Of a stretch of DNA of 64,000 bases, positions 4,674 to 16,356 are shown piece by piece. A program made the translations under genes and the position numbers. Positions within the stretch are counted from its first letter, which is position 1. The number at the start of each line of letters is the position of its first letter. Origin of the DNA: Halopelagius longus. GTDB taxonomy: Archaea; Halobacteriota; Halobacteria; Halobacteriales; Haloferacaceae. A model generated the notes under the pieces. It searched no databases. It had not been told where the DNA came from and was given only the letters and a program-made list of their open reading frames with translations. The stretch spans positions 868,001 to 932,000 of the forward strand of contig NZ_FNKQ01000002.1 of the NCBI RefSeq assembly GCF_900100875.1. The letters run 5' to 3'.

Positions 4674-6863
4674 TTACGACGAGTTCTGTAGCTTCACGAG
4701 GACGATCGTCTTGTCTTCGAGCGGTCTCTGTCCGATCTTTCGGTACGGTCGGTCGAGAGACTCTACCCGGTCCCGATGAAGGACCAAGTACTGAACGCTA
4801 CCGTCCACCTCGCTCAGTTCGATCGATTCGAGACTGTGGTCCGCGTAAAACGCCCACGTAAAGTGCACCGACCCGACCGCGTGGCGGCCGACATACACTC
4901 GTTCTTCGGCTGGCACCCCGGAGTCGACGAGGTTACCCGCCGCCTTCTGTTCCTGCATCCTTTCCTTTGAGAGCGATGGGGGTGCCCCGACAAACGCGAC
5001 TACAACAAATACAGCAAGTGCTACCGGAACGATGTTCGACGCGATGTGATAACCTCCGTCGCTCATCCCATCTGTGAAGATTCGTTTGACGGTGGGAAAA
5101 AGCAGGATTGCGCCGACTACGACGGCGATTCCGAGCAAAAATTGGACGCCAGTTACGAGCTCTCCCGAAAGTAGATGTTGTGTTCTCGGTTCTGCAAACG
5201 GTGAAAACTCCGCCATTCGGAACGAGAACAAGAGCGTGAGTGCTGTTCCGACCAGAACACCGACGATCGCGGTCGGTTCTCGGCGCAGGGCCAGTGAGAA
5301 TAGCCAGCCCACGAGGAGCGAGAAGGGTACGTAGGCGGGAATGATGTACCATTGGTGGTTGCCGGTATAGACGAAGAAGAGCATCGTCGAGACGCCCCAC
5401 CAACAGAGGAAGAGAGGGGTAAGAGAGGTCATGTCGTCCCGGTCGGTGGAGAGATCTCTCGTGACCAAGGCAGCGGGAATCAGGAAGTACACCCACGGGT
5501 CGAAATGGACTAAGAAGTTCTTGAAGTAGGGGTACTTCATGAATCCGAACATCGCGCCCTCTACAGTGTACATACTGGACTCGGTCGCACGAGTGAGAAC
5601 CTGTTCGATGAATATCTCCCGGATGAACTGCTCACCGTAAGTCGCCCAAGCGAGAATTGGCCACGGGAGTAGAACTGCACCGCCGACTCCGAGCCCACGA
5701 ACGAAATCCTTCGTCAGGAACACGCGATAGTTCACGAAAACGAGCGGAAGAACTGCTATCGCGAAAATCCCCGCACCGAACCCCTTGACGAGAACCGTGA
5801 GAGCGCCGACGAGACCGACTGCGGGGAACAACCCTGAACGATCCTCTCTCACCGCTTTCAACACAAGGTAGACGAAGGCCGCACCGAGCAACGTATTGAG
5901 CATGTCCGTCCCGCCGGTACGGCCAGCGTTATTGCCGGCACAGATGTACGGGACTACCAAGAAAATTAATCCAGAGAAGTATCCGACTTCCCGACCGTGG
6001 AGTTCTTTCCCGAAGAAGAATATCAGCACCGACGCGGCGATCGTCGCGGTCGCAGAGGGAAAGCGAGCCCCGAAAGCCGTCGTCCCGAACACGAGCATAG
6101 AAACCGCCTCTACCCAAAGCGCGAGGGGAGGTTTTTCGAGGAACGCAGCCTCCCGTATCTGTCCGCTTCCGACCATCCAGTTGACGTGCGGGAAGAGCCA
6201 GTGGCCACGGTGGACCGCATGTTGAGCCGCGTTCGCATAGATCGCCTCATCCCAGGCGATCAGCGGGTACGACCCGAGACCCCGATAGTAGATTATCGCA
6301 CCGGCGACCACGAGAGCGACCAGTAACGCCTTGTCCATCGCCGTCAGCGCGATTTGGGCCTGCAACGAGCGGAGTCGGCCGAACTTCCCTCGATTCGAGA
6401 CGGTCCGCTCAGATCCGACCGACGAGCGTATCGTCGGGGACGGACTGCCAGATGAGCCGGTCGATTCCGACGGTTGTCCCGTCGCGAGTCGAGGAGGGCC
6501 CGACGGTGAGGCCCCCGATGATGTATCCGTAGCGTCTCCTGTCGAACCAGCCGACTGCGGTTCGAGTTCTGTCTCTACTGATTCCCTTTCTTTCGAATCC
6601 GGTCGGTCCGTGTCCTCTGCGCCGTGAGACTGCTCGCGAACTGCAGCAACGAACGATTCGACGGCTTTCGCCTCGTCATCGGAGACAGTCGAACTGGGCG
6701 AAAACCCCGCCACCTTCGAGAAGTAAGACTTCGTCAGCCTGGCGGTTTCCTCACCGACATTAGCTCGATCAGCAACGCGGGTCAGATACTCGTTTATTGT
6801 CTCCGACCTCTGTTTCTCGACGCCAGAGACCGATTGAATCTCTCGTAGATCTATATCGGGCAT
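4674..6863 (-). CDS. GT-C membrane glycosyltransferase (ArnT/PMT type) with an N-terminal soluble domain
   Basis: This 729-residue protein has three parts. Residues ~1-75 are a soluble helical segment (contains TINEYLTRVADRANVGEET). Residues ~76-160 form a Ser/Thr/Gly/acidic linker. From ~179 on there are multiple transmembrane helices. The first extracytoplasmic loop carries YPLIAWDEAIYANAA with Asp-Glu at ~205-206, the catalytic/metal signature of GT-C enzymes that use polyprenyl-phosphate sugars (ArnT, protein O-mannosyltransferases, archaeal AglS). It is the downstream partner of a dolichol-phosphate-type GT2 gene 54 bp away on the same strand, so a donor maker and donor user are paired. 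GC is visibly lower than in flanking genes. Acceptor and sugar cannot be read from sequence. Confidence 0.82.
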   Translation of the reverse strand: MPDIDLREIQSVSGVEKQRSETINEYLTRVADRANVGEETARLTKSYFSKVAGFSPSSTVSDDEAKAVESFVAAVREQSHGAEDTDRPDSKERESVETELEPQSAGSTGDATDTSSGASPSGPPRLATGQPSESTGSSGSPSPTIRSSVGSERTVSNRGKFGRLRSLQAQIALTAMDKALLVALVVAGAIIYYRGLGSYPLIAWDEAIYANAAQHAVHRGHWLFPHVNWMVGSGQIREAAFLEKPPLALWVEAVSMLVFGTTAFGARFPSATATIAASVLIFFFGKELHGREVGYFSGLIFLVVPYICAGNNAGRTGGTDMLNTLLGAAFVYLVLKAVREDRSGLFPAVGLVGALTVLVKGFGAGIFAIAVLPLVFVNYRVFLTKDFVRGLGVGGAVLLPWPILAWATYGEQFIREIFIEQVLTRATESSMYTVEGAMFGFMKYPYFKNFLVHFDPWVYFLIPAALVTRDLSTDRDDMTSLTPLFLCWWGVSTMLFFVYTGNHQWYIIPAYVPFSLLVGWLFSLALRREPTAIVGVLVGTALTLLFSFRMAEFSPFAEPRTQHLLSGELVTGVQFLLGIAVVVGAILLFPTVKRIFTDGMSDGGYHIASNIVPVALAVFVVVAFVGAPPSLSKERMQEQKAAGNLVDSGVPAEERVYVGRHAVGSVHFTWAFYADHSLESIELSEVDGSVQYLVLHRDRVESLDRPYRKIGQRPLEDKTIVLVKLQNSS

Positions 6864-6917
6864 CGTTCACTCTACCTCCCCTCGCGGGCAGACGGGAACC
6901 GAGCGGTATGATTCGAG

Positions 6918-7685
6918 CTACTCACCATTGCTACCAGTTTTCATCAGCTTCGAGCGGTCTGTCTTCGTTACGTCTCGGAATCGAGGGCTAGTCGCGATCG
7001 CATCAGTGCGACGCTTCACGTCTACGAGCGCCGTGGCGAGCTCGATCGACGTCGAGATAGGATTGACCGTCGAGTCGGGGTGGTCTTCCCAATCGACGGG
7101 GACCTCCGCGATTTCGTAGCCGAGCGAACCGGCCACGCTCACGAACTCTAGATCCCACGCGAACTCAGGTTCGTAGCAGTGGTGCCCGATAGTTTCCCAC
7201 GCATCCGCCCGGACGGCCTTCGCACCGCACTGGTAGTCTCGACACTGCGTCGGGAGCATCTTCCGCGCCGCGAACGCGAAAACGTCTCCGAGAAGTCGAC
7301 GAACAACCGTCTGGTGAGCGACGATGCGCGAGGACGGATGTCGACGAGACGCGATTCCTACCTCGGCGGTGCCCTCGCTAACCTGTCGGACAACGTCCGA
7401 AAGCGACGTGGCGGGAACGGACCCGTCGGCGTCGGCGAACGCGATAACATCCGTATCCAGCGCGTCGAAACCTTCCATAATCGCAGCCCCCTTTCCACGT
7501 TGGGTGTTCGAGACGTTGACGTCCGCGACCTCTTCGAGTCGGCTGACGGTGGCCTGCTTCGGTGCGTCGATCTCGATACGAATAACCACCGGATCGAGAA
7601 CGCGTCGGACCGATTCGATGTACCGTTCGAGCGTGAGAATATCCGGTTCGTATGCCGGAATAACGACGCCAATACTATCCGTCAC
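6918..7685 (-). CDS. Family 2 glycosyltransferase, polyprenyl-phosphate sugar synthase type
   Basis: I chose the GTG at 7685 (VTDSIGVVIPAYEPD), which has a purine-rich GGGAGGGG about 6 nt upstream; a GTG at 7757 would add 24 residues with no ribosome site. The 255-residue protein has the GT-A nucleotide-sugar fold markers: GVVIPAYEP at the start, NTQRGKGAAIMEGF, and a DADG metal-binding motif (AFADADGSVP), then YQCGAKAVRADAW. No C-terminal transmembrane helices are evident, so it resembles DPM synthase/AglJ-like enzymes charging dolichol phosphate rather than the AglD type. It leads a two-gene operon with the GT-C protein. Lower GC than surroundings suggests transfer. Confidence 0.82.
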   Translation of the reverse strand: MTDSIGVVIPAYEPDILTLERYIESVRRVLDPVVIRIEIDAPKQATVSRLEEVADVNVSNTQRGKGAAIMEGFDALDTDVIAFADADGSVPATSLSDVVRQVSEGTAEVGIASRRHPSSRIVAHQTVVRRLLGDVFAFAARKMLPTQCRDYQCGAKAVRADAWETIGHHCYEPEFAWDLEFVSVAGSLGYEIAEVPVDWEDHPDSTVNPISTSIELATALVDVKRRTDAIATSPRFRDVTKTDRSKLMKTGSNGE

Positions 7686-8099
7686 GCCATCCCCTCCCTT
7701 TCCCGTACATACCTTCGGTATCACAGTTGGATCACATATATGCTTCCCCGCTGACACCTTACTCTATTCGTTCCGCACCCGTAGCCTGCTGAGAGTTTTC
7801 AATTTAATTTGACAAACAGATGTATTCTCCCCTTGTGTTCCCTCTACCGGCCAAAATATGTGGTATACGTCGATTGAGAAGAGGTACATTCCAATGGAGT
7901 CTAGCTCAGTGGTAATAATGTCAACTATCGGAGCGAAATTGGCTCTCGTTTCGATTACGATAGATCTCGGATTTCACCAAGCGATAGCAGCGCATCTTCC
8001 CTCCGTGGAGACGATGTCCCACTAAACTCAGCTGCTAGGTTCCAACGTTCACACGGTTTGCTGACTCTAACGCCGTCGGTCGAGAACCGTCGGCGAGAG
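7686..8099. other. Intergenic region, AT-richer, no convincing gene
   Basis: About 410 bp with much lower GC than the rest of the window. It should hold the promoter of the glycosyltransferase operon on the minus strand; an AAATTAAAT-like element near 7801-7810 is a weak candidate. It also holds the degenerate tRNA-Thr 3'-end copy at 7839-7851 and, 50 bp further, a stretch resembling a tRNA D-arm (TAGCTCAGTGGTA, 7902-7914) that does not fold into a tRNA. No open frame here looks coding. Confidence 0.5.
7839..7851 (+). repeat. Imperfect copy of the tRNA-Thr 3' end, candidate degenerate att site
   Basis: TCCCTCTACCGGC matches the tRNA-Thr 3' end at 4492-4504 at 12 of 13 positions, in the same orientation. 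The two copies bracket the low-GC segment that carries the two glycosyltransferase genes. No integrase is present, so if this was an integrated element it has decayed or was mobilised in trans. The match is short and could be chance. Confidence 0.3.
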
Positions 8100-8411: not shown

Positions 8412-8808
8412 AGATACTGAATCAGATACTGACTTGTCTCCGCTGGAGACACACAGTCAAATGTGTATCGAAGTTCGAAACCCCTGTCTCGTCGGCGACA
8501 CCCGCCGTCCGTGCGCGCCGACTTCCGAATTGCTCCGTCGGCGCACTATGTCGCTATGACGACAGTTCCTGTCTCCTCGAAGCAAGCGGTTTCGAGGCCG
8601 TCGCTCCTCTCTTTGGTTCTCTCGACGACCCCCTCCAGTGCGGTCACCAGTCGCACCGGATTCACGGGGGCGTCGTCCGAACAAACCAGGGCGTTCGTAC
8701 GCCCACTGGTAGTATATCCTCACTGCTTAAATTTGTACTGTATTGACACGAGTTGGTCGTCTTCCGTCGCTTCAGGCACTTTATCATCCGCCGCGGCGGA
8801 GGAGGGAT
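8412..8808. other. Intergenic region upstream of dphB
   Basis: About 400 bp. Frames here are short and basic and I do not support any as a gene. It contains a strong hairpin at 8685-8710 and AT-rich elements at ~8709-8735 (AGTATATCC, CTTAAATTTG) that could be the promoter of dphB on the plus strand. The promoter of the 103-residue minus-strand gene should also lie here. Confidence 0.4.
8685..8710. promoter_or_regulatory. Hairpin/inverted repeat upstream of dphB
   Basis: GGGCGT and ACGCCC pair around a TCGT loop (8689-8704); beyond a two-base bulge ACCA pairs with TGGT, giving about 10 bp of stem. It sits just upstream of AT-rich promoter-like sequence. It could be an operator palindrome or a transcription terminator; nothing in the sequence decides between them. 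Confidence 0.3.
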
Positions 8809-9588
8809 ATGCTCACGTTCATCGGTCTCGGTCTGTACGACGAGCGTTCGATAACCGTCGAGGGGAGAGACGCGCTTCGAGAGGCGGACCGCGCGTACGC
8901 GGAGTTCTACACGAGCAAACTGCTCGGTGCGACCGTCGACGAACTGGAGTCGCACCACGGCGTCGATATTGAGGTTCTCGGTCGGGAAGGCGTCGAACAG
9001 CGTCCCGAGGAGATGCTCGACGCCGCCGAGACCGAGGACGTCGCGTTCCTCACCGCCGGCGACACGATGATATCGACGACGCACGTGGACCTGCGACTCC
9101 GGGCGGTAGAGCGCGGTATCGAGACGCGCGTCGTCCACGGCGTAACCGCCCAGTCGGCCGCGAGCGGTCTCAGCGGGCTTCAGAACTACCGGTTCGGAAA
9201 GGCCGTGACGCTCCCGTTCCCGTACGCGCACGGTGCGGAGGGCGTCCCGCAGAGCGTCGTCGACTCCATCGAGGCGAACCGAGAGCGAGGACTCCACACG
9301 CTGGTGTACCTCGACATCAAGGCCGACCGCGACGAGTACATGACGGCGCAGTTCGCCGCCGGGGAACTGGCGTCCGACTGGAAGGACGTCCTCGGCGTCG
9401 TCGTCGCCCGCGCCGGGAGTCCGGACCCCGTCGTGGCGGCGGACCGACTCTCCGCACTCGCGGACCGCGAGTTCGGCGACCCGCTTCACATGCTCCTCGT
9501 TCCCGGTGACCTCCACCACGTCGAGGCCGACGCGGTGCGGACGCTCGGCGGTGCGCCGGACGACGTGGTCGCGGAGAACGAACTGTAA
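8809..9588 (+). CDS. dphB: Diphthine synthase DphB
   Basis: The ATG at 8809 has a GGAGG Shine-Dalgarno 4-8 nt upstream and gives the family N-terminus MLTFIGLGLYDERSIT. The 259-residue protein matches the tetrapyrrole-methylase fold used by archaeal DphB: GLGLYDERSITVEG at the start, FLTAGDTMISTTHVDL, and VVHGVTAQSAASGLSGLQNY. DphB uses S-adenosylmethionine to methylate the modified histidine of elongation factor 2 on the way to diphthamide. Length is normal for the family. It converges on the archaeosortase gene with 21 bp between stops. Confidence 0.93.
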   Translation: MLTFIGLGLYDERSITVEGRDALREADRAYAEFYTSKLLGATVDELESHHGVDIEVLGREGVEQRPEEMLDAAETEDVAFLTAGDTMISTTHVDLRLRAVERGIETRVVHGVTAQSAASGLSGLQNYRFGKAVTLPFPYAHGAEGVPQSVVDSIEANRERGLHTLVYLDIKADRDEYMTAQFAAGELASDWKDVLGVVVARAGSPDPVVAADRLSALADREFGDPLHMLLVPGDLHHVEADAVRTLGGAPDDVVAENEL

Positions 9589-9609: not shown

Positions 9610-10554
9610 TCAGACGCTTCCGCCGCGGTTCGTCCCCTGTACGTCCTCTACGTCGAGGGCGTCGGCTAAGTCGTACTCGTCGCCGGTGAGCATGTACAAC
9701 ACGTCCTCGACGACCGTGAGGAGTTCCGGCAGTTCGCGGACGACGAGGTAGGTGATGCCGACGAGAGCGACGACCGCGAGCAGTTGGCTGATTATCCGAT
9801 CCGAGATGAAAAACGAGACCATGTAGGGGTCGCTCGACCCGAACAGAAGCAGTATCTCGTCGACGAAGAACTGGAAGTACTGCTTTCCGAAGGCGATGGT
9901 GATGAACGTCGTCCGAAGCAGATTGAGCGCGTAGATGATGGGGATGGCGATAGCCAGCGCGCGGAGTTTCCGCCGGAGCGGAGCCTTCACCGCGGCGATG
10001 AGGCCCGCGAAGATGGTCATGCTTCCCAGACCGGTGCACGCGAGGACGACGGACACTTCGAGGCGGTGGTCGCCCGCCCAGAAGCGGAACGTGTTCAGAT
10101 AGCCCTGCTCGCCGACGACGAGTTCGGGGTGGTAGCCGAGGGCGTTGACCAAGAACCCCGTCTGAGCGGCGACCGTCTCCATCAGGACGCCCCTCGGGGC
10201 GGGCACGTGGAGTCCGAGGAGCGTGAACGCTGGTATCGTCTCGAACGGGAGGTAGACGGCCCCCATCACGGCGACGGCGCGGGAGAGGACGAACAGCGAA
10301 CTTCGGCCGGAGTAGAGGAGATACCCCGCGTAGAGACACGCCGGGACGGCGGCCAAAGAGAGGAACCCCTCGATGTAGCTCTTGTGGACGAACGCGAAGT
10401 GAGGGACCAACTGCAGCCAAAAGAGCGCGAAACCGGCCCACGCGGCCAGGGTGACGTATCGCGCGTACCGCTCGTCGCGGCGTTCGAGTACCGCGCCGAC
10501 GACGAACGTCAGGATGACGACCCACGCGAGGGCGTCGGAAAGAACTCCGGGCAT
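9610..10554 (-). CDS. artA: Archaeosortase A
   Basis: The 314-residue protein is a polytopic membrane protein with about eight hydrophobic segments. The exosortase/archaeosortase catalytic triad is visible: Cys173 in LACTGLGSM, Arg214 in LNLLRTTF, Arg253 in FISDRIISQ. These numbers agree with those I recall for Haloferax volcanii ArtA. ArtA recognises PGF-CTERM tripartite signals, removes the C-terminal transmembrane helix and is required for lipid anchoring of the product. The next gene upstream on the same strand is an S-layer glycoprotein ending in exactly such a signal. A 182 bp gap with a terminator-like hairpin separates them, so co-transcription would require readthrough. Confidence 0.95.
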   Translation of the reverse strand: MPGVLSDALAWVVILTFVVGAVLERRDERYARYVTLAAWAGFALFWLQLVPHFAFVHKSYIEGFLSLAAVPACLYAGYLLYSGRSSLFVLSRAVAVMGAVYLPFETIPAFTLLGLHVPAPRGVLMETVAAQTGFLVNALGYHPELVVGEQGYLNTFRFWAGDHRLEVSVVLACTGLGSMTIFAGLIAAVKAPLRRKLRALAIAIPIIYALNLLRTTFITIAFGKQYFQFFVDEILLLFGSSDPYMVSFFISDRIISQLLAVVALVGITYLVVRELPELLTVVEDVLYMLTGDEYDLADALDVEDVQGTNRGGSV

Positions 10555-10680
10555 AGACGAACGATACGGCGTTCGGATTAAATCCCTTGTCGTTCTGTGC
10601 GCCGTCCGAGTCGGACCGTGAACGGACGACTGCGGGCGGTACGGCAGGGTGAGACGACGCTGTCGCTCACCGATCGAGTC

Positions 10681-10730
10681 CGAAAGAAAGGAAGTTCGGG
10701 ACCGAGTCGGAGGGAAACCCTCCGGGACTC
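10681..10730 (-). terminator. Hairpin terminator of the S-layer gene
   Basis: Just past the S-layer stop (TAA, 10737-10739) lies CGGAGGG-AAA-CCCTCCG at 10708-10724, extendable by GAGT/ACTC. Read on the minus strand it is followed by a T-rich tract (TTCCTTTCTTTCG). This fits termination of a very abundant mRNA before artA. Confidence 0.55.
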
Positions 10731-10736
10731 AGTTAG

Positions 10737-13403
10737 TTAGTCGCGGCGGACGGCGAGGAGCGCCGCAGCGAGGAGCGCGGTGACAGCGACGACCACGCCG
10801 AATCCGGGCGTGCTCGTGTCAGTCTCCGTCGGCCCTTCGGTTGCGGTCTCGCCGGTCGACGTCGTCGTCACGGCCGTCGTGGTGGCCGGCGCGTCGGTCG
10901 TCGTGTCGACAGGCTCGTCCGTCGTCGCCGTACCGTTGTCCGTCACGGTTTCGGTGACCTGGGAGCCTTCGACGACTTCGCCGTCAACCGTTTCGTCAGA
11001 GGCAGCGTTGCTGCCACTCACTTTCACGGTGAACGTGTCGTTGACGTTCTGACCGCTGAAGTCGAAGTCAGCAGAGAACGTGTTGTTCTCGGTGACGTGG
11101 ACCGTCGCGGTCTTCAGGAAGCTCGGGCGGACGTCCGAGTCACTGCGGACACGGAGCTGAAGTTCCGTACCCGGGGCGACGTTGGACGTGCCTTCGATGG
11201 TCTGACCCGCAGCGTTCGCAACGTTGTACGGGTCGTCGAGGCTGTGTTCGCCCTCGATGAGGTCGAAGTTAGCCGTCGTGCTGGTCTCCTCGCTGGAGAG
11301 GTTGCCCTTGTCCTTCGCGACGGTGAAGTTAGCCGTGAGGCTGTCACCGTCACCGAAGTCGACTTCGCCGCTCGGGCGGAACGCGCCGATGTCGCCTGCG
11401 TCCGAGTCGAACACGACGTAGTACGTGTCGTTCTCGGTGTCAGCGACGACGCTCTGGACGTTGTCCTCGCTCACGTTGAGCGAGTACGCCTCGCGGTTGG
11501 TCGGAGCTTCGCTCTGGTTGAACGTGAGGCTGAACTTGCTGTTGTTGAGGAGCGCCGAAGCGTTGTCGTTCGCGCCATCGACGATGCCGCCGATGCCGGA
11601 TGCGACGATCTGGGTGACGACGTAGTCGCCGTCAGCGATCTTGCTGTCCTGCGTGAGGTTACCGTTCTCGGCGGCCTCGTTCAGTGCGCTGAGGTCGCTG
11701 AGGTCGGTGCGGTCGGAAGCGGTCCACGTCTGGAGCGATTCCGTGCTGCGCTCTTCGAGGACGAGCGTGCCGACGTTCTGGGAGCTCGAGCTCGCGTCCT
11801 GGTTCGCGCGGACTTCGAGGTCGTACTCGCCAGCGTCGAGGAGCGATTCGACGGAGTTCTCCGACTGGATGTCGGACTTGACGATCGCGTCGTCGTCGTT
11901 CTTCACGGTGAAGACGTCGGAGCTACCGGTCGTCGAACCGGAGGCGCCGATCGCTTCCCACGTGTTGAAGCGGATGACGACTTTGCCGTCGTTGTTCTCG
12001 TCTTCGACGGTCACGTTAGCAAGGAAACCGACGTCCGTGCTACCGATGTTGACCGTCGCGTAGTCGTTGTTCGAGACGGTGACGGGGATTTCGACCGTGT
12101 CACCGCGCTGTTCGGTAATGATCGAGTTGCTGAAGCTGGCCGAGCCGTCGGAGGCCTTAGCAACCTTGATGGTCGAGGATTCGACCGTCACACCCGAGTA
12201 GTCGTCGCGGACTTCGAGCGTGTATTCGCCGTTGTCGGTGTCACTGAAGGCGTCGATGTCGAACTCGTATTCACCCTGACCGTTCAGGGAGTCGTTGACT
12301 TCCGCACCGAACTCGTCGCCGTCAGACTCGTAGAGCTGAAGCGAGACCGGACGGTTACCCGCGTTGGCGGAGACCGTACCAGAGACGGTGTCGGACGTCG
12401 TGATGTTCTGGTCATCGACGTCGAGGGAAAGACCGAGGTCGCGAAGGTCGATCGTGCGCGTCGCACTATCGAACGTCACGTTGTATTCGCCGAGTGCGCG
12501 GTTCTCCGTGTTGAAGACGAACACCTTGCTGTGGTCGCCCGTGGAACCGGAGAACGCGTAGTTGTCCTCGCCTTCGATCTCGACAGACGAATCCGTGCTG
12601 TTCGAGACGACTGCAACCTTCGAGCCCTTGTACGCATTCGCGTCGTTGGAGCGAATCGTCGTAGAGGCGAAGGTCACGGACTTCGCGTCGTCAGTATCGG
12701 AGACACTGACGGTGTTGCCCGCGGTGTCGTCGACGCTGTAGGTGATCGAGATGTCGTCCGTGTAGACCTTGCTCAGGTCGAAGACAACACGGCCACCTTC
12801 GCTGGCGGCGGTGTCAGCGTTCGAGAGCGTGGTGATCTCCTCTTCGTCGCTGTTGAGGAGAGTCACGGTCGCGCTGCTCGCATCAACGTTCTTGTTGAAC
12901 GCCAGTTCAAGCTCAGCGTCCACGTTGTCCGACCCCGACGCCGTGTCGTTGTCGTAGTGGATTGCGGACTTGAGCGTAGGCTTCGAGTTGTCTACCTCGA
13001 AGGAAGCCGTTGCTTCTGCCTCATCTCCAACGGAGAGCGAGGCGTTCTGGTAGGCAGCAACTTGGTAGCTGCCTTCGGATGCGCCCGAGGGGACCGTAAG
13101 CGTCTGACCAGTGTACTCGCCACTGGAATCAGCCGCCGTCGATCCGCTAGGCTCCGAATCGTTGTAGAAGCCGTCGTTGTTCAGGTCGATCCAATACTGA
13201 ATATCGCCAGTAGTCGAAGTGTTGTTCGTGACGGTAAACGCCACGTCACTGCCCGAGGAAACTACCTCGGAACCAGATTCGACTGTGACGGAATTTGCTG
13301 CCGCAGCAGCCGTGCCCGTGAACGCGATGGTGCCGGCGAAGACCGACAGAACCATCAGCGCGGCGAGCGCGACGGCGCGGATCTGCTTAGATTTCCGTGT
13401 CAT
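10737..13403 (-). CDS. csg: S-layer (major cell surface) glycoprotein with PGF-CTERM anchor signal
   Basis: The 888-residue protein begins with a haloarchaeal surface-glycoprotein signal peptide (MTRKSKQIRAVALAALMVLS, Ala-rich end, cleavage near residue 35-37). The body is beta-rich, Asp/Ser/Thr/Asn-rich and acidic. It has many N-glycosylation sequons (for example YNDS, YNVT, NGNLT, LNNS, TENNT) and only sparse positive charge. A Thr-rich stretch of about 45 residues precedes the C-terminal sorting signal STPGFGVVVAVTALLAA...AVRRD, with Pro-Gly-Phe at 866-868, one membrane helix and a basic tail. It should be exported, glycosylated, cleaved by ArtA and lipid-anchored. The neighbouring gene is artA. 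Paralogous PGF-CTERM surface proteins exist, so being the principal S-layer protein is inferred from size, signal and promoter. Confidence 0.9.
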   Translation of the reverse strand: MTRKSKQIRAVALAALMVLSVFAGTIAFTGTAAAAANSVTVESGSEVVSSGSDVAFTVTNNTSTTGDIQYWIDLNNDGFYNDSEPSGSTAADSSGEYTGQTLTVPSGASEGSYQVAAYQNASLSVGDEAEATASFEVDNSKPTLKSAIHYDNDTASGSDNVDAELELAFNKNVDASSATVTLLNSDEEEITTLSNADTAASEGGRVVFDLSKVYTDDISITYSVDDTAGNTVSVSDTDDAKSVTFASTTIRSNDANAYKGSKVAVVSNSTDSSVEIEGEDNYAFSGSTGDHSKVFVFNTENRALGEYNVTFDSATRTIDLRDLGLSLDVDDQNITTSDTVSGTVSANAGNRPVSLQLYESDGDEFGAEVNDSLNGQGEYEFDIDAFSDTDNGEYTLEVRDDYSGVTVESSTIKVAKASDGSASFSNSIITEQRGDTVEIPVTVSNNDYATVNIGSTDVGFLANVTVEDENNDGKVVIRFNTWEAIGASGSTTGSSDVFTVKNDDDAIVKSDIQSENSVESLLDAGEYDLEVRANQDASSSSQNVGTLVLEERSTESLQTWTASDRTDLSDLSALNEAAENGNLTQDSKIADGDYVVTQIVASGIGGIVDGANDNASALLNNSKFSLTFNQSEAPTNREAYSLNVSEDNVQSVVADTENDTYYVVFDSDAGDIGAFRPSGEVDFGDGDSLTANFTVAKDKGNLSSEETSTTANFDLIEGEHSLDDPYNVANAAGQTIEGTSNVAPGTELQLRVRSDSDVRPSFLKTATVHVTENNTFSADFDFSGQNVNDTFTVKVSGSNAASDETVDGEVVEGSQVTETVTDNGTATTDEPVDTTTDAPATTTAVTTTSTGETATEGPTETDTSTPGFGVVVAVTALLAAALLAVRRD

Positions 13404-13761
13404 GTTTAGTTGGGTAGGTCGCTAGTCGGCAACAGCACCTTTCGGTCGCCCTCGATATCCAGACGCCCGCCGAAGCGGACTTGGACGACGGTACTCGCTG
13501 ATGTCACCTTGGGTAGGGGTACAGGTCGAAACTTCTCCCAGTGTTATATATGTCTTCTGTTCTGGAAATTGTTTTCACAGCGAAAATGAAGATATGGGAC
13601 CACTCAATCGAAGTTAATGTCTACCAGATAACAACACGACGGTTCAGCGTGCTACCTGTATCCGGTACCTGTTACGCTCATCCGCGATTCTCGTTGTTGT
13701 GACTGTGCGAGCGGCGAATCTGGTCGAGACGGGGAGACGAAAAGCGAGGGGCGGCCGGCGC
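13404..13761. other. Leader and promoter region of the S-layer gene
   Basis: This 358 bp stretch is the 5' region of the minus-strand S-layer gene and the 3' side of the VOC gene. It is AT-rich between ~13540 and 13640. I see no gene in it. Confidence 0.5.
13544..13551 (-). promoter_or_regulatory. TATA box of the S-layer gene
   Basis: TTATATAT on the plus strand reads ATATATAA on the minus strand. Transcription would start about 25 bp downstream, near 13520, giving a 5' leader of roughly 115 nt. A long leader is what I recall for the Haloferax csg transcript. Confidence 0.5.
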
Positions 13762-14532
13762 TCAGTCGTCGCTGGGGTTGAGAACCTCGATTTCGTGACC
13801 GTCGGGGTCCTTCGTGAACGCGTAGCGTTGGTCGCAGGACTCGGGATCGCGGTAGTCCTCCGCCTCCCGTTCCATCAGGGTGTCCCAGTACTCGTTCAGG
13901 TCGTCGGCGCGGACGCAGACGTGCCCCCACGCGTCGCCCATCGTGTACGTTCGGCCGTCGTAATTGTACGTGAGTTCGACGGCCATCGCCTCTTCGGCGG
14001 CGTCCTCGGGCTTCATGAAGTAGTTCGCGAACGTGTCGGACTCCCAGCGACCGGTGTGTTCGTACTCGAACTTCCGCGTCCAGAAGCCGATGGCCTCGTC
14101 GGCGTCCTCGACGCGCATCATCGTGTGGTCGATGCTCCACTTCGCGCCGTGGTCGCGTTGGACGATTTCGACCTCGTGGCCGTCGGGGTCCTTCACGAAC
14201 GCGTAGCGTCCGCCGCAGGACTCGGGGTCGCGGTAATCCTCGACGCCCTCGTCCATCAACTGCTGGTAGTGCTCTTCGAGTTCGCCCTCGGGGACGCGGA
14301 CGGCGATGTGGCCCCACGCGTCGCCCATCTCGTACGTCCGGTCGTCGTGGTTGTACGTCAGTTCGAGGACCGCGCCGTCCTCGTGGACGTCCTCCGGCCC
14401 GAGGTAGACGTTCGTGAACGTGTCGGCCTCCCAGCGACCCTTCTCCTCGTAGTCGAAGTGCGTCTGGTACCACTCGAGCGATTCATCGAGGTCCTCGACG
14501 CGCATCATCACGTGGTCAAGTACTCCGGACAT
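13762..14532 (-). CDS. Two-domain VOC family protein (glyoxalase/dioxygenase fold)
   Basis: The ATG at 14532 (MSGVLDHVMMRVEDLDES) gives 256 residues. Two halves of ~125 residues are clear tandem duplicates: each starts DH.MMRVED.DE, contains AVELTYN.D.RTY.MGDAWGH in broken form, and ends DPDGHE.E. The conserved His and Glu positions of glyoxalase I-type metal sites appear in both (DHVMM, GHIAV, HEVEI; DHTMM, GHVCV, HEIEV). The best guess is a lactoylglutathione lyase-like or related VOC metalloenzyme; haloarchaea use gamma-glutamylcysteine rather than glutathione, so the substrate is unknown. It is monocistronic as far as visible. Confidence 0.85.
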   Translation of the reverse strand: MSGVLDHVMMRVEDLDESLEWYQTHFDYEEKGRWEADTFTNVYLGPEDVHEDGAVLELTYNHDDRTYEMGDAWGHIAVRVPEGELEEHYQQLMDEGVEDYRDPESCGGRYAFVKDPDGHEVEIVQRDHGAKWSIDHTMMRVEDADEAIGFWTRKFEYEHTGRWESDTFANYFMKPEDAAEEAMAVELTYNYDGRTYTMGDAWGHVCVRADDLNEYWDTLMEREAEDYRDPESCDQRYAFTKDPDGHEIEVLNPSDD

Positions 14533-15105: not shown

Positions 15106-16218
15106 TTACTTCCGCGCGACGATGCGGAGGATGTCTTCGTCCTGCAGTTCGTGGTCGCGGCCGACCTGTTGTTCGTCGTGTTTCGCGCTCGGTCCGGTGA
15201 CGCGCGCGAACCGGAACCGTTCGTCCAACGTCCCGCCGAGTCTGTCGAGTGCGTCGTCGACGGTGTTCTCCTCCTCCGTGAGGACGAGCGGTTCCTCGTA
15301 ATCGACGCCGCGGCCCGGCTTGTCCATGTAGATGCGGATGAGGCCGAGTTCCTCCCACATCTTCTCCTTCAGGGCGTCGAGGCCCTTCTCGGCCTCCGCG
15401 CTGATGAAGACGGCCTCCTCGGGGTCGATACCGACCTCCCTGAGGTTCTCCTCGACTGTCGGCAGGTAGTCGCGGTCGATGAGGTCGGCTTTGTTGACCG
15501 TGACCATCGAGGGCAGGTAGACGCGGTTGTCCATGATGCCGTCGATGAGTTCGTCTATCGTCAGGTCGCCGCGGACGGTCACGTCGGCGTTGACGTACCC
15601 GTGCTCTCTGAGGACGTCCTTGATCGTCTCCTCGTCGAGGGAGACGTCGTCCGTGGTGGTGACCTGAAGCCCGCCCTTCCCCGTCTTCGAGATGGTGAGG
15701 CTCGGCGGTTCGGCGTCGAGTCGAATCTTGTTCTCGTACAGTTCGTGGCGGAGGCGTTCGTAGCGCTCGATTTCGAACACCGAGAGCATGAACACCACGA
15801 GGTCGGCGGTTCGGACGACCGAGAGCACCTCCTTGCCGCCGCCGCGGCCGCCCGCCGCGCCCTCGATGAGACCCGGAACGTCGAGGATCTGGATGTTCGC
15901 TCCGTTGTACTTGAGCATCCCCGGGTTGACGTTCAGCGTCGTGAACTCGTACTCGCCGACTTCGCTGTCGGCGTTCGTCAGGGCGTTGATGAGCGTCGAT
16001 TTGCCGACGCTCGGGAATCCGACGAGTGCGACGGTCACGTCGCCGGTCTTCTCGACCGCGTAGCCGTGGCCGCCACCGCTGGAGGACTGTTTCTCGAGTT
16101 TCTCCTTCTTTTCCGCGAGCTTCGCCTTCAGACGCCCGATGTGTGACTCCGTCGACTTGTTGTAGGGCGTGTTCGCGATCTCCTCGCGGAGTTCTTCGAT
16201 CTCTTCCTCCAGTCCCAT
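15106..16218 (-). CDS. DRG-family GTPase (Obg-like, TGS domain)
   Basis: I chose the ATG at 16218 (MGLEEEIEELREEI), the conserved family start; an ATG six codons upstream (16236) is possible. The 370-residue protein has a helical N-terminus with KSTESHIGRLKAKLAEKKEK, then the G domain: G1 GFPSVGKST, G3 DVPGLIEGA, G4 NKAD, with a long inserted S5D2L-like segment. A C-terminal TGS domain begins near GVDYEEPLVL. Archaeal/eukaryotic DRG proteins bind translating ribosomes, and the eukaryotic ones work with DFRP partners. Length and domain order are normal. It heads an operon with the 154-residue membrane protein. Confidence 0.92.
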   Translation of the reverse strand: MGLEEEIEELREEIANTPYNKSTESHIGRLKAKLAEKKEKLEKQSSSGGGHGYAVEKTGDVTVALVGFPSVGKSTLINALTNADSEVGEYEFTTLNVNPGMLKYNGANIQILDVPGLIEGAAGGRGGGKEVLSVVRTADLVVFMLSVFEIERYERLRHELYENKIRLDAEPPSLTISKTGKGGLQVTTTDDVSLDEETIKDVLREHGYVNADVTVRGDLTIDELIDGIMDNRVYLPSMVTVNKADLIDRDYLPTVEENLREVGIDPEEAVFISAEAEKGLDALKEKMWEELGLIRIYMDKPGRGVDYEEPLVLTEEENTVDDALDRLGGTLDERFRFARVTGPSAKHDEQQVGRDHELQDEDILRIVARK

Positions 16219-16356
16219 CGGGTACACGTCGGCCACGTGCGTCGAAAAACCTGTTCCTTCGTCTCGGCATCGGTTGTTGTTTCGCGTACGCGGGAGCGCG
16301 CGAGAAACGCTTCGATAGCGTTATATCGAGCACTCGTGACCGAGGAACTAGACGAG

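Follow-up and report, generated by a model that had tools for sequence, protein, structure and literature searches.

The analyses presented below concern csg, which encodes an S-layer-type glycoprotein, and artA, which encodes archaeosortase A (ArtA), two adjacent genes in a 64,000-nt stretch of Halopelagius longus DNA (contig NZ_FNKQ01000002.1, positions 868,001 to 932,000; 'the window', in whose own numbering coordinates are given). We establish the gene content and synteny of this region, together with the conservation of its promoter and leader sequences, and we consider it likely that the pair represents an old inherited gene order, that each gene has a separate promoter, that ArtA serves multiple clients, and that any coordination between the two genes is more probably achieved in trans. 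According to this explanation, the csg–artA order would have been inherited across many haloarchaeal families, presumably from a single event, and broken many times; csg transcription would normally end before artA; and ArtA in this species, as a housekeeping enzyme, would cleave and lipid-anchor the csg product plus several other PGF-CTERM proteins. If enzyme and client are indeed supplied in step, a shared promoter signature that acts in trans, read by some putative regulator, would be a likelier means than read-through. The two genes are as follows.

9610–10554, minus strand: artA, archaeosortase A, 314 aa (TIGR04125 profile match).
10737–13403, minus strand: csg, csg-type S-layer glycoprotein, 888 aa, with signal peptide, BGTF domain and PGF-CTERM (profile matches).

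A first-pass annotation, made from the sequence alone, had described an intact ArtA (Cys173, Arg214, Arg253) encoded directly downstream, on the same strand, of an 888-residue PGF-CTERM glycoprotein, and this description holds; the genes are separated by 182 nt (10555–10736). The window's ArtA scores 356 bits against the TIGR04125 cut-off of 75 and, in an alignment of nine ArtA proteins, keeps all three residues, which are reported to be critical in Haloferax volcanii ArtA (PMC9263693). A set of 120 haloarchaeal ArtA proteins shows no variation at Cys173 or Arg214 (120/120), while residue 253 varies (Arg in 79 proteins, Asn in 29, and Lys, His or Ser in the other 12); at the preceding residue, 252, His replaces Asp in 36 of the 120. 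The csg product exceeds the cut-offs for the TIGR04207 halo surface signal (45 bits), for PGF-CTERM (TIGR04126, 45 bits) and for the BGTF surface domain (94 bits), the combination that marks a haloarchaeal S-layer or surface glycoprotein in the wider sense. The model NF041335 ('ArtA-dependent S-layer glycoprotein') spans it end to end at 723 bits, under the equivalog cut-off of 1100 that the H. volcanii control likewise fails to reach; we therefore speak of an S-layer-type glycoprotein and claim no membership of that equivalog for it. It is likely the main client of ArtA. A phmmer search of csg against solved PDB chains gave no match at E 0.01, and a PDB sequence search with the window's ArtA returned no credible relative. 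A second S-layer paralogue of the same genome, on another contig (L251; G000:C1:700852-703671), has a csg-type leader and the same promoter class as those described below.

The genome holds a single archaeosortase A gene and encodes about nine PGF-CTERM proteins, five above cut-off and about four more likely, so that ArtA is not dedicated to csg and the one-enzyme, one-client pattern of a dedicated operon is not what we find. On these predictions ArtA is an enzyme of general use that serves several clients. A screen of 394 haloarchaeal genomes found artA in 393; tandem archaeosortase A pairs occur in three genomes of family f3 (G157:C9:524527-526473, G198:C22:265756-267766 and G306:C1:407899-409778).

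To place the pair among its relatives, we surveyed 119 artA loci from 83 genera (one to four per genus) in eleven families (f1–f11), and a second set of 80 artA loci from named genomes that are partly the same as those of the f1 set. A locus was scored as linked when the same strand encoded, no more than 700 bp upstream of artA, a PGF-CTERM protein with a length of 400 aa or more. An S-layer-type gene stands directly upstream of artA in 47 of the 119 loci, 44 recognized through a PGF regular expression and three by reading open reading frames (ORFs) with a GAGF signal variant (L177, L236, L237). These loci fall in six families: f1 (16/29), f2 (4/8), f3 (19/30), f6 (2/4), f8 (4/5) and f9 (2/3); no linkage was seen in f4 (0/31), f7 (0/5), f10 (0/2), f5 or f11 (f10, f5 and f11 together 0/4). 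The annotation had argued that linkage would not be special if most haloarchaea carried it: this majority exists within the six families (47/79) and not across the survey as a whole. The flanks of the pair are conserved as well.

8803–9588, plus strand: dph5, diphthine synthase, convergent with artA (TIGR00522, 255 bits; synteny).
13762–14532, minus strand: two-domain VOC-like protein, 256 aa, upstream flank (VOC/glyoxalase-like by inspection only; synteny).
15106–16236, minus strand: DRG/Obg-like GTPase, upstream flank (MMR_HSR1, TGS; synteny).

The order DRG GTPase–VOC–csg–artA–dph5 is repeated in f1, f3, f6 and f8, so that the ancestral linkage offered by the annotation as one of two explanations is supported by csg lying directly upstream of artA in six of eleven families, with the same flank order in four. 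In a tree of the 120 ArtA proteins every linked row (48, the window counted) lies within one 80-row side, families f4, f5, f7, f10 and f11 making up the other, and the linkage state requires 18 changes as against about 38 with shuffled labels. The pattern fits an old inherited order with many losses, and the csg–artA pair would then be an ordinary inherited neighbourhood, not a special one. Loss can be seen even among close species. Of the Haloferax sampled, mucosum, gibbonsii, prahovense, larsenii, marinum, marisrubri, profundi and sp. Q22 have the pair, and sulfurifontis, denitrificans and massiliensis, in which artA comes straight after VOC, lack it; most sampled Haloferax species are thus linked, and the H. 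volcanii type is unlinked. A literature search found no earlier report of artA–csg linkage or of the artA promoter.

One might ask whether adjacency arose by recent horizontal transfer of an enzyme–substrate cassette. Relative to the window, csg is only 30–48 % identical, between neighbours that are 56–90 % identical (ArtA 56–82 %, VOC mostly 70–88 %, DRG about 73–93 %), and in Haloquadratum there is documented exchange of csg through deletion-coupled insertion (PMC3119063). A transferred cassette is nevertheless improbable, given that the order of artA, dph5, VOC and DRG is constant, that ArtA groups largely by family and that only csg varies; an ArtA that follows the family while csg moves, which counts against such a transfer, is largely what is seen.

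Several loci depart from the common arrangement. In the other genome of the window's genus (G123; L214) the S-layer gene, which shares 54 % identity with csg and carries the same leader, lies beyond dph5 and not upstream of artA. Two or three tandem S-layer genes precede artA in five f3 loci (L232, L233, L238, L239, L213) and in one f1 genome (L227). In the Halopenitus-like loci L215 and L216 and in L182 and L199 (f2) the slot 5' of artA is taken by a secreted-looking protein of 1260–1720 aa that ends in a C-terminal transmembrane segment and arginines, without PGF. On the far side of dph5 the window carries genes for a GT2 glycosyltransferase and a PMT/ArnT-like membrane transferase (4674–7757, minus strand), neither of which was matched in the 80 named artA loci.

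The second explanation offered by the annotation was dosage control in cis, in which read-through past a hairpin supplies ArtA in proportion to csg. The sequence between the genes bears directly on it.

10680–10733, minus strand: terminator-like hairpin and T-rich tract 3' of csg (folding).
10579–10594, minus strand: artA promoter AACGACAAGGGATTTA (conservation), with a TATA-like TTTA that ends 24 nt before the ATG.
Upstream of artA: AACGACAAGG.

The promoter sequence AACGACAAGGGATTTA ends 24–26 nt 5' of the ATG, the geometry of a leaderless haloarchaeal promoter. Among family f1 and the named genomes, which are of Haloferacaceae type, it is found, at up to four mismatches, in 34 of 36 loci with csg adjacent and in 72 of 73 without (106/109, about 0.3 being expected), and it is unique in the 3.87-Mb genome even with up to two mismatches. 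When compared with the promoters of dph5, VOC, DRG, cox1 and a small ORF, over 26–31 syntenic loci each, that of artA is the best conserved of the six (mean column identity of the top 16-nt window 0.96; cox1 0.93; others 0.70–0.81). Since the promoter is alike with and without an adjacent csg, it appears to be independent of read-through. In addition, csg is followed by a strong predicted hairpin (about 10733–10701; −25 to −28 kcal/mol), then by CTTCCTTTCTTTCG; TTTCTTT accompanies the hairpin after csg. Most linked loci likewise have a hairpin and T-tract behind csg, with a CTTTCTTT-like tract 30–60 nt past the csg stop. A sigma-70-type promoter and terminator scan, unsuited to archaea, gave nothing above shuffles and was set aside.

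With a conserved artA promoter and a hairpin and T-tract inside the gap, the sequence evidence does not describe a single transcription unit, and artA is probably not fed by csg transcripts. It is true that the genes share a strand and that linked loci have a short, fairly constant gap (mostly 130–260 bp), as coupling in cis would have it; against this stand the strong artA-specific promoter of linked and unlinked genomes alike, the separation of csg from artA by the hairpin and T-tract, the several other clients of ArtA, and the repeated loss of linkage, even inside Haloferax, from genomes that keep ArtA almost without exception. The dosage proposal is thus not supported and seems very improbable.

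Considering the separate promoters together with a 12-mer common to both and a leader conserved among csg mRNAs, we argue that enzyme–substrate coupling, if any, would more probably operate in trans and not through read-through. The rare 12-mer, ACAARRNATTTA, is mostly present at 2–8 sites per genome (70 sites over 18 genomes; 4 for the exact reverse, used as control), and an ACAARR block belongs to the csg and artA promoters. Of these sites, 24 lie at artA or at artA-linked csg; a stricter form, ACAARGNATTTA, has four sites in the window's genome, artA and the second csg among them. Forty other sites were read out, and 21 of them belong to S-layer paralogues (8), lipobox proteins (10) or PGF proteins (3), the ATG being mostly 23–27 nt downstream unless an S-layer leader intervenes. 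A control with another upstream box, CGAARRNATTTA, gave 9 sites in seven genomes that have 41 sites of the 12-mer, and none of the 9 stands at an S-layer, lipobox or PGF gene. The 12-mer loci examined comprise 10579–10594 of the window, L258–L261 and L292–L331.

These distributions suggest that ACAARRNATTTA marks an envelope promoter class. Some shared factor, or one specific TFB/TBP pair, may read this class and so raise artA jointly with S-layer and other envelope genes; we regard this as possible, though somewhat short of an even chance. The rarity of the 12-mer, its placement and the contrast with both controls speak for such a factor; yet the factor is hypothetical, many sites stand at simple membrane proteins, haloarchaea have a large number of lipoproteins, and the 12-mer may be a mere strong-promoter variant of highly expressed genes. 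High expression alone could account for part of the pattern.

The csg mRNA, in turn, is predicted to carry a conserved leader.

13404–13522, minus strand: 119-nt leader of the csg mRNA, which opens with GTACCCCTACCCAAGGTGACATCAGCGAGTA; its 5' block is predicted to form a stem with GTGCTGTTGCC close to the ATG (alignment).
13544–13558, minus strand: csg TATA region GAAGACATATATAA, about 26–28 nt before the leader start.

The leader motif is GTACCCCTACCCAWGGTG, and its 17-nt core occurs in 96 of the 394 haloarchaeal genomes (reversed control, 0 matches), once per genome except in G267 (three tandem copies) and G213 (two). The motif starts about 26–28 nt past a CACAAAGCATTTATAA-type box and 82–132 nt (mode 116–119) before the S-layer ATG, and all 60 distinct copies examined (60/60) precede an S-layer start, whether artA-linked or not. 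Alignment of 24 divergent leaders predicts a covarying 8-bp stem (GGTGACA / TGTTGCC) in which the 5' block GTACCCCTACCCAWGGTG...GAGTA pairs with GGTGCTGTCGCC near the ATG: over eight pairs, 90.5 % of cells pair, compared with 85.4 % in shuffles, in the best of seven registers, and nine cells are changed on both sides, compared with 3.2 in shuffles (0/500 as high). Conserved leaders are located at 13404–13522 of the window (minus strand) and at L262–L291. A coding upstream ORF in the leader was rejected because the start codon is missing in 10 of 60 leaders and the frame is about as open as expected. An Rfam search with the window's csg promoter and leader region found no family. Older papers (Lechner and Sumper, 1987; Sumper, 1990) reportedly deal with csg mRNA leaders; the leader motif was not reported in the literature searched, from which those papers were not retrieved, and a long csg leader may have been described before.

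Taking promoter and leader together, we tentatively propose, at close to even confidence, a cell-envelope promoter class ACAARRNATTTA that ties S-layer genes, artA, lipoproteins and anchored proteins, combined with an S-layer leader of about 116 nt, through which enzyme and client would be matched in trans. If so, the leader, usually present once per genome, could set S-layer output. The artA promoter, the envelope 12-mer and the leader are concrete sites for mutation in studies of how coat protein is matched to its anchoring machinery. Four observations weigh against the overall explanation put forward here. The ArtA tree, which lacks a root, fits by itself either one gain with many losses or several gains; fold z-scores of the terminator against shuffles are weak (mean −0.3), the T-tract being the consistent part; the control promoter class CGAARRNATTTA comprises only 9 sites; and the window's own csg promoter differs from the shared 12-mer at two positions.

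Finally, the window may be compared with systems already known. ArtA of H. volcanii (HVO_0915) is of the same enzyme family as the window's, with the same catalytic residues, and its client, the S-layer glycoprotein (HVO_2072), has a PGF-CTERM signal; in contrast to the adjacent pair of the window, the two genes are distant by locus number, and the annotation had likewise put artA apart from csg there. This species, on which the ArtA model rests, is one of a group of Haloferax that lack the gene order common in the genus and family, and separation of artA from csg is thus a local condition, not a general rule. In the locus L068, from H. gibbonsii ATCC 33959, the gene directly 5' of artA encodes an S-layer protein that shares 44 % identity with the window's, and the flanks are the same. 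An H. gibbonsii S-layer glycoprotein was identified by mass spectrometry (PMC7921747), and from locus numbering we infer that HfgLR_04635/ABY42_04395 is the artA-linked copy. That species has two S-layer genes, as does the window's genome, and the other one, HfgLR_11210, encodes the receptor of HFTV1 (PMC9973310). The csg islands of Haloquadratum walsbyi, described as 'divergent genes in a conserved syntenic context' (PMC3119063), resemble the window in combining a fast-changing S-layer gene with a conserved setting; unlike the window, the two H. walsbyi genomes sampled (L061, L067) have VOC directly 5' of artA with no csg there, so that csg in those genomes is located elsewhere.

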